Assembly (NCBI RefSeq): GCF_030549615.1
Contig: NZ_CP130832.1
Location: forward strand, 4,548,501-4,612,500
Direction: 5' to 3'
DNA from: Stenotrophomonas sp. 610A2
GTDB taxonomy: Bacteria > Pseudomonadota > Gammaproteobacteria > Xanthomonadales > Xanthomonadaceae
DNA: 64,000 bases
A program made the position numbers and the translations under genes. The notes below the pieces were generated by a model. The model was not told where the DNA came from and ran no database searches. It saw only the letters and a program-made list of their open reading frames with translations. Below are positions 29,987 through 48,446 of this stretch, piece by piece. Each line of letters opens with the position of its first letter. Positions within the stretch are counted from its first letter, which is position 1.

Positions 29987-30190
29987 GTAGTGCCGAGCCA
30001 TGCTCGGCAGGGGCCTCATGCACCAACCAATGATCACCAGATTGCCCGGCTTTTTAGGAGCGGCGTAAACCGCGAAGCCACGAATGCCTGCAAGCTGGGC
30101 ATTCGTGGCTATTGCTATTCGGCCGGGTTGGATCTGGCTGTCTGCTGCTTCGGTGGGATTCCTGGCTTCGCGGCTTACGCCGCTCCTACA
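29987..30190. repeat. SMAG unit plus an inverted REP pair
   Basis: A GTAGTGCCGAGCC SMAG unit is at 29987-30014. A REP unit TAGGAGCGGCGTAAACCGCG is at 30055-30078 and its inverted partner at 30164-30190. Between them CCACGAATGCC and GGCATTCGTGG form a further hairpin. Apart from these, the 304-base gap between the M61 and OmpA genes shows no gene. Confidence 0.8.
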
Positions 30191-44691: not shown

Positions 44692-47175
44692 ATGGCGTTT
44701 TCCCTCGCTCCCCGCACCGAAGCCAGCGAACGGGCGCTGGCAACCACCGATGGCCTGCCATCGCGTGACGGCTCGCTGCTCGGCCAGCGCCTGGCCCGCC
44801 GCTACAAGGACCGGGTCACCGGCAGCTTCACCATTCCCGGCCGCGAAGGCAGCTATGCGCCGATTCCGGATGATGTGCCCGAGGCGCTGAAAGCGGCATT
44901 GAAGGCGCGCGGCATCGAGCAGCTGTACTCGCATCAGGCCGAGGCCTGGGACGCCAGCCAGCGCGGCGAGCACGTCGCCATCGTCACTCCCACCGCCTCC
45001 GGCAAATCGCTGTGTTACACGCTGCCGGTGGTAAGCGCGGCGATGCAGGGCAATGCCAAGGCCTTGTACCTGTTCCCGACCAAGGCGCTCGCGCAGGACC
45101 AGGTGGCCGAGCTGCTGGAGCTCAACCGCGCCGGCGATCTTGGGGTCAAGGCCTTCACCTTCGACGGTGATACGCCCGGCGATGCGCGGCAGGCGATCCG
45201 CCTGCATGGCGACATCGTGGTCAGCAACCCGGACATGCTGCACCAGGCGATCCTGCCGCATCACACCAAGTGGGCGCAGTTCTTCGAGAACCTGCGCTAT
45301 GTGGTGATCGACGAGATCCACACCTATCGCGGCGTGTTCGGCAGCCATGTCACCAACGTGCTGCGGCGGCTCAAGCGCATCTGTGCGTTCTATGGCGTGC
45401 AACCGCAATTCATCCTGTGCTCGGCCACCATCGGCAACCCGCATGCGCATGCCGAGGCGCTGGTTGAAGAGAAGGTGCATGCGATCACCGAGTCCGGCGC
45501 ACCGACCGGGCCCAAGCACGTGCTGCTGTGGAACCCACCGGTGATCAACCCGGATCTTGGCCTGCGCGCCTCGGCGCGCTCACAGGCCAACCGCATCGCC
45601 CGCATCGCGATCAAGAGTGGCCTGAAGACCCTGGTGTTTGCACAGACGCGCTTGATGGTGGAAGTGCTGACCAAGTACCTGAAGGACATCTTCGACAACG
45701 ACCCGCGCAAGCCGGCCCGCATTCGCGCCTATCGTGGCGGCTATCTGCCGACCGAACGCCGCGAGGTGGAACGGGCGATGCGCGCCGGCAACATCGACGG
45801 CATCGTCAGCACCTCGGCGCTGGAGCTGGGCGTGGATATCGGCGCGCTCGACGTGGTCATCCTCAACGGCTACCCCGGCAGCGTTGCGGCGACGTGGCAG
45901 CGCTTCGGCCGTGCCGGTCGTCGTCAGCAGGCCGCGCTCGGCGTGATGGTCGCCAGCAGCCAGCCGCTGGACCAGTACGTGGTGCGGCATCCGGATTTCT
46001 TTGCCAACGCGACGCCGGAACACGCACGCATTTCACCGGACCAGCCGCTGATCCTGTTCGACCACATCCGCTGCGCAGCGTTCGAGCTGCCGTTCCTGGC
46101 CGCTGAGCCGTTCGGGCCGATCGATCCGCTGGTATTCCTGCAGGCGCTGGCCGAAACCGAAGTGGTGCATCAGGAAGGCGACCGCTGGGAGTGGATCGCC
46201 GACAGCTATCCCGCCAATGCAGTGAGCCTGCGCGCGGTTGCCGATGGCAACTTCGTGGTGGTGGACCGCAGCGATGGCAAGCAGCAGATCATCGCCGAGG
46301 TAGATTACTCCGCCGCTGCGCTGACGCTGTACGAAGGCGCCATCCACATGGTGCAGAGCACGCCGTACCAGGTGGAGCGGCTGGACTGGGACGGCCGCAA
46401 GGCCTACGTCACCCGTACCCATGTCGACTACTACACCGACAGCATCGACTACACCAAGCTCAAAGTGCTGGACCGCTTTGATGGCAACGGCGCCGGCCGT
46501 GGTGATTCGCATCACGGCGAAGTGCACGTGGTGCGACGCGTGGCCGGCTACAAGAAGATCCGCTACTACACCCACGAGAACATCGGCTACGGCCCGGTCA
46601 ACCTGCCCGATCAGGAACTGCACACCACCTCGGTCTGGTGGCAGCTTCCGCAGGCCACGCTGCTGCGCAGCTTCGCGCAGAAGCAGGATGCGCTGGATGG
46701 TTTCCTCGGTGCCGCCTATGCACTGCACATCGTTGCCACCGTCGCGGTGATGGCCGACGCCCGCGATCTGCAGAAAACGGTTGGCAATGGCGATGGTGCC
46801 TGGTTTGCAATTGCCGACCAGACCGGCCGCGGCCAGCTGCGCGGCAATGAAGCCGGTGAAGCCACGGTGGAACTGATGCAGAGCTTCTTGCCCACGGTAT
46901 ACCTGTACGACAACTTCCCCGGCGGCGTGGGCCTGAGCGAACCGCTATGGCAGCGCCAGGGCGAGCTGGTGCAACGCGCGTTGGAGCTGGTGGAGCGTTG
47001 TGATTGCAATGCGGGCTGCCCGGCTTGTGTTGGTCCGGTGCTGGCTGCGCAGGAAGATGACAAGGGACCAACACCGCGTTCATTGGCATTGACCGTGTTG
47101 TCGCTGCTGTCTGCCGAGCGATGCGATCAGGTGCCGACCATCGTCATGGACGAGGCCGTCGACCTGCTGCCATGA
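44692..47175 (+). CDS. mrfA: DEAD/DEAH helicase with C-terminal DUF1998 domain (MrfA/YprA-like)
   Basis: An 827-residue helicase of the YprA/MrfA group. In Bacillus subtilis, MrfA with the exonuclease MrfB repairs mitomycin C damage. The N-terminal RecA domain has Walker A (TPTASGKS) and the DEIH box in VVIDEIHTYRGVFGSH. The second RecA domain has STSALELGVDIGALD and QRFGRAGRRQQ. The DUF1998 region ends in a cysteine cluster, CDCNAGCPACVGP, near residue 775, a likely metal site. The ATG at 44692 was chosen; a GTG 12 codons upstream lies inside the hairpin. The stop overlaps the mrfB start in ATGA. Confidence 0.88.
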   Translation: MAFSLAPRTEASERALATTDGLPSRDGSLLGQRLARRYKDRVTGSFTIPGREGSYAPIPDDVPEALKAALKARGIEQLYSHQAEAWDASQRGEHVAIVTPTASGKSLCYTLPVVSAAMQGNAKALYLFPTKALAQDQVAELLELNRAGDLGVKAFTFDGDTPGDARQAIRLHGDIVVSNPDMLHQAILPHHTKWAQFFENLRYVVIDEIHTYRGVFGSHVTNVLRRLKRICAFYGVQPQFILCSATIGNPHAHAEALVEEKVHAITESGAPTGPKHVLLWNPPVINPDLGLRASARSQANRIARIAIKSGLKTLVFAQTRLMVEVLTKYLKDIFDNDPRKPARIRAYRGGYLPTERREVERAMRAGNIDGIVSTSALELGVDIGALDVVILNGYPGSVAATWQRFGRAGRRQQAALGVMVASSQPLDQYVVRHPDFFANATPEHARISPDQPLILFDHIRCAAFELPFLAAEPFGPIDPLVFLQALAETEVVHQEGDRWEWIADSYPANAVSLRAVADGNFVVVDRSDGKQQIIAEVDYSAAALTLYEGAIHMVQSTPYQVERLDWDGRKAYVTRTHVDYYTDSIDYTKLKVLDRFDGNGAGRGDSHHGEVHVVRRVAGYKKIRYYTHENIGYGPVNLPDQELHTTSVWWQLPQATLLRSFAQKQDALDGFLGAAYALHIVATVAVMADARDLQKTVGNGDGAWFAIADQTGRGQLRGNEAGEATVELMQSFLPTVYLYDNFPGGVGLSEPLWQRQGELVQRALELVERCDCNAGCPACVGPVLAAQEDDKGPTPRSLALTVLSLLSAERCDQVPTIVMDEAVDLLP

Positions 47176-48263
47176 GCATCAGCCTGGACAAACTGAAAGC
47201 CCTGCGCAAACAGGCGGGGCTGGCGACGGCAGCACCTGCGGAATCAGCGGGGCACCCAGTTGTTGTAGGAGCGGCGTCAGCCGCGAAGCCACCAATGGTG
47301 GACGCTGCAGCATTGCCTGTTGCTCCGGATGCAACTGGCTCTTCGTCGGCTTCGGAGGCGATACCGGCTTCGCGGCTGACGCCGCTCCTACAACAACAGC
47401 CGAAGCAGGAATCCTCGGTATTCGGCTGGGTCGATCAGATCAAGCACAAACCCGCGGTACCGCAGGACGGCGCTGCATTGCGGCGCTTGTTGGCAACACG
47501 CAACCGCGCCATCGCTCCTGCACAACCAATCGAACGTGGCCCGGTTGATCGCGATCTGCCCGGCACCGAAATCGCACCCGGACTGCATCTGATCGAAGCC
47601 TTCATCCCGCAGGCGATTCCAACGCAACCGCTGTCGTTGGCTTTCAGCAAGCGTCCCGAAGAATCAGTCGCGCCACAGGACCTGCTGTTCTTCGATACCG
47701 AGACCACCGGCCTTGCCGGCGGCACCGGCACCCGCGCCTTCATGATCGGCGCCGCCGACTGGCATCACGATGCAGCGCGCGGCGACGGCCTGCGCGTGCG
47801 CCAGCTGATGATGTCGACGATGGGTGCGGAGAGCGCGATGCTGGAGTTGTTCGCGAGCTGGCTGTCACCGACCACGGTGCTGTCCAGCTACAACGGCCGC
47901 TGTTACGACGCGCCGTTGTTGAAGACGCGTTACCGGCTGGCACGGCGTGGTGATCCGATTTCCGCATTGGACCATGTGGATCTTTTGTTCCCGACCCGCC
48001 GTCGCTATCGCGGTACCTGGGAGAACTGCCGGCTGGCGACCATCGAGCGGCAGTTGCTGCTCATCGCACGCGAGGATGACTTGCCGGGTTCGGAAGCGCC
48101 TGCGGCGTGGTTGAGTTATCTGCGTGGCGGCAGCGCGCGCAACCTGCGCCGCGTTGGTGAGCACAACCATCAGGACGTGGTGACCTTGGCGCTGTTGTTC
48201 CTGCGCCTGGTGCAGGCGGAAGCTGATGAGCGGGCGGAGTTGGCACTGGAGGCGGAGCGCTGA
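47172..48263 (+). CDS. mrfB: RNase H-like exonuclease, MrfB/YprB-like, with translated REP pair
   Basis: A 363-residue DEDD-type exonuclease. The first acidic pair is D175 and E177 (FFDTETTGLAGGTG), a further acidic residue is in SALDHVDLLFP, and the C-terminal site is HNHQDVV. The gene overlaps mrfA by four bases, the pairing seen in Bacillus MrfAB, where the nuclease acts with the helicase on mitomycin adducts. The N-terminal ~145 residues are a poorly conserved linker. Residues about 32-74 are encoded by an inverted pair of REP units (47265-47392), giving VGAASAAKPP and [11 protein letters not shown]. The frame stays open because the first unit reads GTCAGCC where the common version has GTAAGCC, which would be a stop here. 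Confidence 0.87.
   Translation: MSISLDKLKALRKQAGLATAAPAESAGHPVVVGAASAAKPPMVDAAALPVAPDATGSSSASEAIPASRLTPLLQQQPKQESSVFGWVDQIKHKPAVPQDGAALRRLLATRNRAIAPAQPIERGPVDRDLPGTEIAPGLHLIEAFIPQAIPTQPLSLAFSKRPEESVAPQDLLFFDTETTGLAGGTGTRAFMIGAADWHHDAARGDGLRVRQLMMSTMGAESAMLELFASWLSPTTVLSSYNGRCYDAPLLKTRYRLARRGDPISALDHVDLLFPTRRRYRGTWENCRLATIERQLLLIAREDDLPGSEAPAAWLSYLRGGSARNLRRVGEHNHQDVVTLALLFLRLVQAEADERAELALEAER
47265..47392 (+). repeat. Inverted REP pair inside the mrfB coding region
   Basis: The left unit (47265-47289) begins GTAGGAGCGGCGTCAGCCGC and the right unit (47367-47392) is its exact inverse. Both arms carry the same change from the common unit, so the stem is kept. The 128-base block lies wholly inside the mrfB frame. 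Confidence 0.9.
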
Positions 48264-48300
48264 GTTTCGGTTGCTCGTCAGTCGTTGCTTGAAGCGCTTA

Positions 48301-48395
48301 CCTCTCCCCAGCCCTCCCCTTGGCTGCGCCAAAGGGAGGGAGCGGAGCTTGCCCCCTCCCTTTCGCCGGAGGCGAAGGGGAGGGTTGGGGAGGGG
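48301..48395. repeat. CCTCCCC-family inverted repeat
   Basis: It runs from CCTCTCCCCAGCCCTCCCC to GGGGAGGGTTGGGGAGGGG, with inner hairpins around TTGGCTGCGCCAA and TTCGCCGGAGGCGAA. It lies between mrfB and the convergent M56 gene, probably as a double-sided transcript end. Confidence 0.75.
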
Positions 48396-48446
48396 TGCTT
48401 TTGCTGTAGCTCTAAAAGCCAAGCACCAGCAAACCCTCCCGGAACA

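Follow-up and report, generated by a model that had tools for sequence, protein, structure and literature searches.

Introduction

GTAG REP units and dimers have been described inside genes, many of which act in DNA replication and repair (Di Nocera 2013, PMC3733652); in the parts of that paper covered here, intragenic REPs encode 20-30 residues and clusters encode 43-82. The same parts describe Rickettsia palindromic elements (RPE), in-frame palindromic repeats within the genes of proteins that likely work, among which RPE-4 and RPE-6 are CGTC repeats without a dedicated transposase. In the covered sections of Bertels and Rainey 2011 (PMC3116915), inverted REP doublets, termed REPINs or BIME dimers, are extragenic and form the replicating unit, with a common spacing of 71 bp. 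REP classes in Stenotrophomonas are treated in the covered part of PMC3686654. According to the portion of PMC11194089 considered here, the MrfB protein of B. subtilis is a DEDDh exonuclease that acts together with the MrfA helicase; its first 32 residues are predicted to be unstructured, and a core comprising residues 33-279 is active, at a level about tenfold lower.

Here, we analyzed a 64,000-nucleotide stretch of the Stenotrophomonas sp. 610A2 genome (the window), in which the mrfB homologue carries an inverted pair of REP units. This pair shares with the intragenic REPs of PMC3733652 that GTAG-tagged palindromes, arranged as a dimer, lie in a repair gene, but mrfB is not named in the covered parts of that paper, which contain neither a cross-species insert matching its host nor a loop-codon filter. 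It differs from RPEs in its host and in its repeat family, and it differs from REPINs in being intragenic and in being spaced 102. The statement in the initial annotation that translated REP pairs are rarely reported holds in part: in the literature covered, with supplements outside its scope, we found no account of REPs in mrfB or of translated REPs that match host families, but intragenic REPs, many of them in repair genes, are described in PMC3733652. The element is of a known kind in a gene unnamed in the literature covered, and what appears to be new is the comparative pattern, namely an insert that is probably old and shared, near-constant arms, a match to the host type, and a likely filter on the loop codon.

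Results

An inverted REP dimer lies in the mrfB reading frame

The mrfB gene follows its partner mrfA, which encodes a helicase with a Zn-binding MZB domain (Pfam), and the mrfA stop and mrfB start codons overlap (ATGA). We chose the mrfA start codon at 44692 within an open frame that extends up to 44656; the top NCBIfam match of MrfA, TIGR03817, falls under its cut-off (622 vs 874 bits). The features of the locus, in window coordinates, are as follows.

44692..47175, + strand: mrfA homologue (YprA-type helicase; Pfam DEAD, Helicase_C, MZB)
47172..48263, + strand: mrfB homologue encoding 363 aa, assigned by homology to the DEDDh exonucleases (Pfam RNase_H_2, E 2.8e-38)
47172..47219, + strand: conserved N-terminal motif MSISLDKLKALRKQAG, 16 residues, upstream of the insert (87/89 genus loci)
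47259..47397, + strand: whole inverted repeat with 32-nt perfect arms (RNA fold -93 kcal/mol, z -9.4)
47265..47289, + strand: sense REP unit (25/25 to the REP consensus used), with stem 47271-47275 paired to 47280-47284 and loop 47276-47279
47290..47366, + strand: spacer separating the REP units, with similar spacers in related mrfB genes
47367..47391, - strand: antisense REP unit (25/25 to the REP consensus used)
47685..48203, + strand: catalytic RNase_H_2 domain, residues 172-344 (Pfam)

The mrfB gene contains a real REP dimer within a DNA-repair nuclease. Both units are 25 bp, GTAG-type, and inverted relative to each other, with a start-to-start distance of 102 nt; each consists of a GTAG/GTGG 5' tag followed by a palindrome (GTAGGAGCGGCGTCAGCCGCGAAGC), as in GTAG REPs. 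The arms of the longer inverted repeat (47259-47290 and 47366-47397) are each 32 nt long, 100% complementary, and separated by 75 nt. A tandem duplication inside mrfB was rejected as the source of the pair, given that the arms are inverted. The initial annotation correctly placed an inverted REP pair in the mrfB frame and assigned it about 43 linker residues: the two perfect units bound residues 32-74, which comprise VGAASAAKP from the sense arm, a 25-residue spacer, and ASRLTPLLQ from the antisense arm. The sense unit encodes VGAASAAK and reaches one base into the P40 codon, with its loop codon TCA specifying Ser36, and the antisense unit encodes ASRLTPLL and reaches one base into the Q74 codon.

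The closest named relative of this MrfB, from S. terrae DSM 18941, is 90% identical. Residues D175, E177, D246, H331, and D335, which were matched to the DEDDh residues of B. subtilis MrfB by motif order rather than by alignment to that protein, show no variation among 43 aligned proteins. RNase_H_2 was the sole Pfam domain at E 0.001, and the protein ends 19 residues past the nuclease domain; it thus differs from B. subtilis MrfB, for which the covered part of PMC11194089 gives a C-terminal TPR domain. With a mean pLDDT of 46.8, the AlphaFold model was of insufficient quality to search for similar folds. Ten-residue blocks within residues 21-90 averaged 24-31, and residues 15-86 were modeled without secondary structure. 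However, a part of the catalytic domain (241-300) scored equally low (pLDDT 26-33), so the model alone cannot show that the linker is disordered. The variable length and Ala/Pro/Ser-rich composition of the REP-encoded region suggest disorder.

Downstream of mrfB, window positions 48300-48400 hold a C-rich palindromic element (ctcccc...ggggag). In addition, a contig titled Bacillus subtilis SK7B5 (L020) encodes a Stenotrophomonas-like MrfB, and this record seems to be mislabelled or contaminated.

The insert is very probably translated

Since a conserved start motif precedes the insert, the ATG at 47172 overlaps the mrfA stop, and the frame through the insert is open in all 11 loci with a recognizable REP unit, the REP insert is very probably translated. 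An MrfB match was found in 89 of the 91 genus genomes, and MSISLDKLKALRKQAG was present with <=4 substitutions at 87 of these 89 loci, own genome counted; the two loci missing it were L200, which lies at a contig end, and L247. Between our genome (G000; other G numbers denote the Stenotrophomonas genomes compared) and G087, the start motif differs at 2/48 nt and 0/16 residues, and the next 15 codons differ at 17/45 nt. The initial annotation had proposed a comparison across relatives and had held that an mrfB start downstream of the insert would mean that the insert is not translated. The start was found upstream rather than downstream of the insert, and at least one REP-like unit (<=4 mismatches) was found in 11 of 87 mrfB genes.

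This conserved start and its overlap with the mrfA stop, together with the open frame at all unit-bearing loci, argue against the reading that MrfB begins past the insert and that the REP pair serves as a 5' leader element. That reading, which we consider most improbable, draws on the covered parts of PMC3733652, where many N-terminal intragenic REPs were so judged, and on a MAG protein (P0012) annotated from MFGWVDQ, directly after the insert. The P0012 annotation could reflect either a choice of start call or a broken N-terminus.

In the nine database proteins with a readable insert (P0002-P0009 and P0011), the loop residue was Ser except in P0008, which had Ala. A region-limited protein search of limited sensitivity using residues 28-78 returned four proteins at E <=1 among 209 candidates, all of them MrfB, and hence revealed no other translated copies. 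When own-genome REP units were scored by codon usage, none of 115 distinct units, the mrfB pair included, had flanks that both scored clearly as coding; the codon-usage model is too weak for linkers, and this analysis accordingly has little power.

The sense-arm loop codon appears to be filtered against stops

The exact 19-nt REP core occurs in the 4.68-Mb own genome with a GTCA loop in 89 copies and with a GTAA loop in 269, a total of 358 cores in a count that covers A and C loops only, and the reversed control pattern occurs zero times, so the units in mrfB are no chance matches, in keeping with the high copy number of GTAG REPs. In the mrfB sense frame, GTAA gives TAA and GTGA gives TGA, and GTCA gives no stop; the earlier observation that the usual GTAA would introduce TAA here and that GTCA avoids it was thus borne out. 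That this represents a special stop-avoiding change was not. GTCA makes up 89 of the 358 A-or-C cores genome-wide, so a C-type unit may simply have been inserted. The initial annotation had itself attributed the loop base to chance should the variant be common among intergenic copies, which applies in substance to these cores, genic and intergenic copies being unsorted. The companion claim that the change was coupled to preservation of the stem likewise failed, in that the variable A/C base is the third loop base in GCGGC-GTMA-GCCGC, outside the REP stem, and pairs only in the long fold that joins both arms. Moreover, G076 and G087 have loop C in the sense arm and loop A in the antisense arm. 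Matched loops were seen in 24 of 44 sampled +/- dimers (A/A 13, C/C 11; mrfB pair included), a sample biased to C by 30 loci drawn with the C pattern.

The sense loop codon was TCA in all seven palindromic sense arms from six genomes, whereas among the eight antisense arms of the same genomes there were four with C, two with A, and two with CTTG. REPs outside mrfB also vary at this base: one orthologous + unit carries loop A, C, G, and G in G000, G052, G076, and G087, respectively, and A or G loops were found in 68 of the first 100 units listed in G052 and in 45 of the first 100 in G012. Because the sense loop is invariant at a base that varies in the antisense arms and in orthologous REPs located outside mrfB, stop avoidance appears to act as a real filter on the sense arm.

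REP arms are near-constant and mostly match the host REP family

Intact palindromic arms were present in six genomes, namely G000, G076, G087, G052, G071, and G012. In G071 the element is present twice in tandem, and G052 carries an extra antisense unit; both additions comprise whole codons. Pairwise comparisons among G000, G076, G087, and G052 gave 1-3 differences in 51-54 nt of arm sequence and 31-79 in 279-288 nt of non-REP linker. One-sided Fisher tests of arms versus linker gave p values of 5e-5 to 0.007 in five of the six pairs and 0.096 for G087-G052, although the six pairs share branches and the tests are therefore not independent. The differences between arms were ones that also distinguish REP copies across the genome (GTA/GTG tag, A/C loop).

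The preservation of the arms in both protein and DNA among these four close genomes is what vertical inheritance with purifying selection on the peptide would produce, the host-family match then being coincidence. However, only 0-1 of 8 four-fold sites changed in the sense arm vs 27-38 of 122-129 in the catalytic part, albeit with small numbers, and the G012 arms differ from those of G000 at three encoded residues exactly as the host REP core dictates. We consider this reading very unlikely.

We compared the arms with three REP stem types counted over 15, 18, and 16 genomes, G002 being absent from one count. GCGGC-type units number 350 in G076, 463 in G087, and 527 in G052, GCGAC-type units number 4-6, and the mrfB arms are of the GCGGC type. 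G012, conversely, has 280 GCGAC-type units (GCGAC-GTNA-GTCGC) and one GCGGC-type unit, and both of its mrfB arms are GCGAC, with 25/25 matches. An AAGC tail follows only 6 of the 280 GCGAC-type cores of G012, and two of these six are the mrfB arms. The G012 arms thus combine a core of the host type with the tail found on the mrfB arms of other species, which sets them apart from most new insertions of host REPs. In G071, the host counts are 125 for GCGGC-type units and 36 for the CTTG type, and the arms comprise one GCGGC-GTCA, two CTTG, and one GCAGC/GCTGC arm. The last, which is the sense arm of the second copy, has a compensated stem of a type outside the host counts. Nearly every arm in the six intact-arm genomes matches an abundant host stem type, this uncounted type in G071 being the exception.

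Among genomes with few or no units, G001 and G002 had none of the types searched and no recognizable arms, and G075 had 3, 0, and 2 units of the three types and decayed arms. The relationship between a large host family and intact arms is nevertheless a loose dose rule. G014, G081, and G010 have 36, 64, and 21 units of the matching type, respectively, yet their arms have decayed, and G018 has five CTTG-type units, yet 23/25 positions are kept in its second copy. In the decayed sense arm of G010 (L095), one stem pair has undergone a G-C to C-G swap that is nonsynonymous on both sides and keeps pairing. A tree of the catalytic part from 25 chosen genomes grouped G012, G014, G081, G001, G002, and G048 (96/92) as well as G010, G071, G018, and G075 (97/92), and left the G000 group unresolved. 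Since the genomes form about three groups, the host match represents few independent events.

The pairing of the arms could itself be under selection if it acts in mrfAB mRNA or DNA, through attenuation, stability, or control of mrfB versus mrfA translation, with changes being mostly compensatory. Consistent with this, the whole repeat has a strongly negative RNA fold energy and z-score (see the feature list), 95.7% of stem cells pair in 19 hand-chosen mrfB arms (14 distinct), and both-side changes occur at 2/5 stem pairs, with the covariation score reached by 2/500 shuffles, although the covariation tool warns that related sequences may give such scores without structure. On the other hand, the 19 arms were hand-picked and strongly decayed ones omitted, the gene is kept in G075, G010, G001, and G002 with arms decayed or unrecognizable, and 76 of 87 loci have no unit at <=4 mismatches. 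Compensation alone also fails to predict the exact host-family match in G012. Selection on the hairpin is therefore, in our judgment, a fairly unlikely explanation.

The spacers point to one probable old insertion

When aligned to the spacers of the G000 group, those of G012, G071, G014, and G081 outscored codon shuffles in nearly all comparisons. For the G012 spacer, whose orthology is based on ~70 nt, no shuffle among 1000 scored as well against G076, G087, G052, or the second G071 copy (G071b), and shuffles scored as well in 8/1000 cases for G012-G000 and 2/1000 for G012-G081; the figure rose up to 24/1000 for the decayed G010 and G075. As a further control, we used 55 sampled own-genome dimers in both orientations, with the mrfB pair excluded. 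Relatives outscored all of these dimers for the G052 and G081 spacers, and did so save one relative each for the G012 (G075) and G071b (G014) spacers. For the G000 spacer, the own-genome dimer L002 scored 51.5, equal to most mrfB relatives. L002 is a REP dimer at window positions 30054-30189. For a matching control from G012, only two dimers were picked up, both with very short spacers. In BLAST searches of eight genomes with the G000 spacer, mrfB was the top match in G000, G076, G087, and G081; these searches missed mrfB in G052, where nothing was returned, and in G071, G012, and G014, where weak matches lay elsewhere. In the own genome outside mrfB, the best BLAST match was a 30-nt piece (E 0.002). 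Taken together, one old insertion common to several Stenotrophomonas lineages is likely, though not proven. A mobile subfamily of long dimers, to which L002 might belong, is a conceivable but less likely source of the spacer.

Alternatively, the mrfB linker could be a hot spot in which each group acquired its own dimer of the local REP type. REP types and positions do differ (codon 32 in G000 and codon 67 in G012), the mrfB gene of L246 has other in-frame REP-like units, and, as L002 demonstrates, a similar spacer can occur in another dimer. There is also a precedent in the covered parts of PMC3733652, where recB of two Xanthomonas species has different REPs at about the same site. However, the similarity of the spacers, the shared frame, the close arm spacing (102 vs 96 nt), and the rare AAGC tail in G012 argue against independent insertions, which we regard as unlikely.

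Other repeats were observed at mrfB loci. In Pseudoxanthomonas and Lysobacter, GCGAC-type REP-like units with 2-3 mismatches to the search pattern occur where mrfA meets mrfB, shortly before the start of the matched mrfB, at the following locus coordinates.

L025 3883-3978: junction REP-like units, GCGAC type
L028 3906-3927: junction REP-like units, GCGAC type
L038 3802-3973: junction REP-like units, GCGAC type

In L025 and L028, the mrfB linker encodes further peptides that resemble repeats (SLCEARG..., TPPQSSPALRAREE) and may stem from translation of another palindromic repeat family. In L246, mrfB encodes 423 residues ahead of the nuclease motif, a part that includes two REP-like sense units (2 and 4 mismatches) as well as repeated SALDWI..TIRHADP blocks.

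The mrfB arms appear to behave like the genomic REP population

The own genome has two Y1 transposases, with a Y1_Tnp match at G000:C1:2303195-2303503, and at the Y1_Tnp locus L179 an exact REP unit and two units with 2 mismatches are distributed over both sides of the gene. By these matches, a cognate RAYT flanked by REPs exists in this genome, with a putative role in mobilization. The commonest dimer spacing in the own-genome sample was 72 (17/44), compared with 102 for the mrfB pair. Across 184 kb of the own genome, we found seven REP clusters, one of which was mrfB, and five of the six others, which are putatively extragenic, could be placed in at least one relative. At the sites outside mrfB, units were gained or lost and loop bases changed, and the cores were perfect or nearly so. 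The uniformity of the arms therefore looks like a property of the REP population, and the peculiarity of mrfB looks like the constant C in its sense arm.

Discussion

Our analyses slightly favor a model in which a REP dimer was captured in a tolerant linker, is maintained through conversion or re-copying in the same way as the REPs of the genome at large, and is filtered against stops. A dimer of a kind thought to be mobilized by RAYTs would have landed in frame in mrfB of an ancestor of several Stenotrophomonas lineages, within the variable linker that connects the conserved N-terminal motif to the exonuclease domain. Because the linker would tolerate extra residues, the dimer would have stayed and be translated. 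In genomes with a large matching REP family, the arms would tend to stay identical to the family through gene conversion or REP re-copying as the spacer drifts, and in genomes without such a family the arms would decay. The strong coding constraints would be the frame and the absence of stops, such that the sense arm bars GTAA and GTGA and the antisense arm takes any loop seen. The conversion mechanism, the role of the RAYT, and the neutrality and disorder of the encoded residues are what we infer from these patterns; no conversion tract was observed in the mrfB comparisons, and selection on a DNA or RNA hairpin predicts much the same as this conversion model.

A stronger form of the model is that a coding sequence evolves in concert with non-coding REPs. 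The mrfB arms would be repeatedly overwritten from extragenic REPs, or would co-evolve with them, such that residues of a nuclease are set by the local repeat family and selection mainly discards donors that bring stops. We hold this form to be plausible but somewhat short of probable.

It has long been asked whether REPs stay uniform by gene conversion, by transposase copying, or by selection, and a 1988 review reportedly proposed gene conversion. A REP pair inside a gene can be aligned at a constant position, where the presence or absence of a stop codon serves as an inherent readout of selection. The mrfB locus could thus allow the rate and direction of REP replacement to be measured across strains, and it suggests that a repeat family may thereby write protein sequence.
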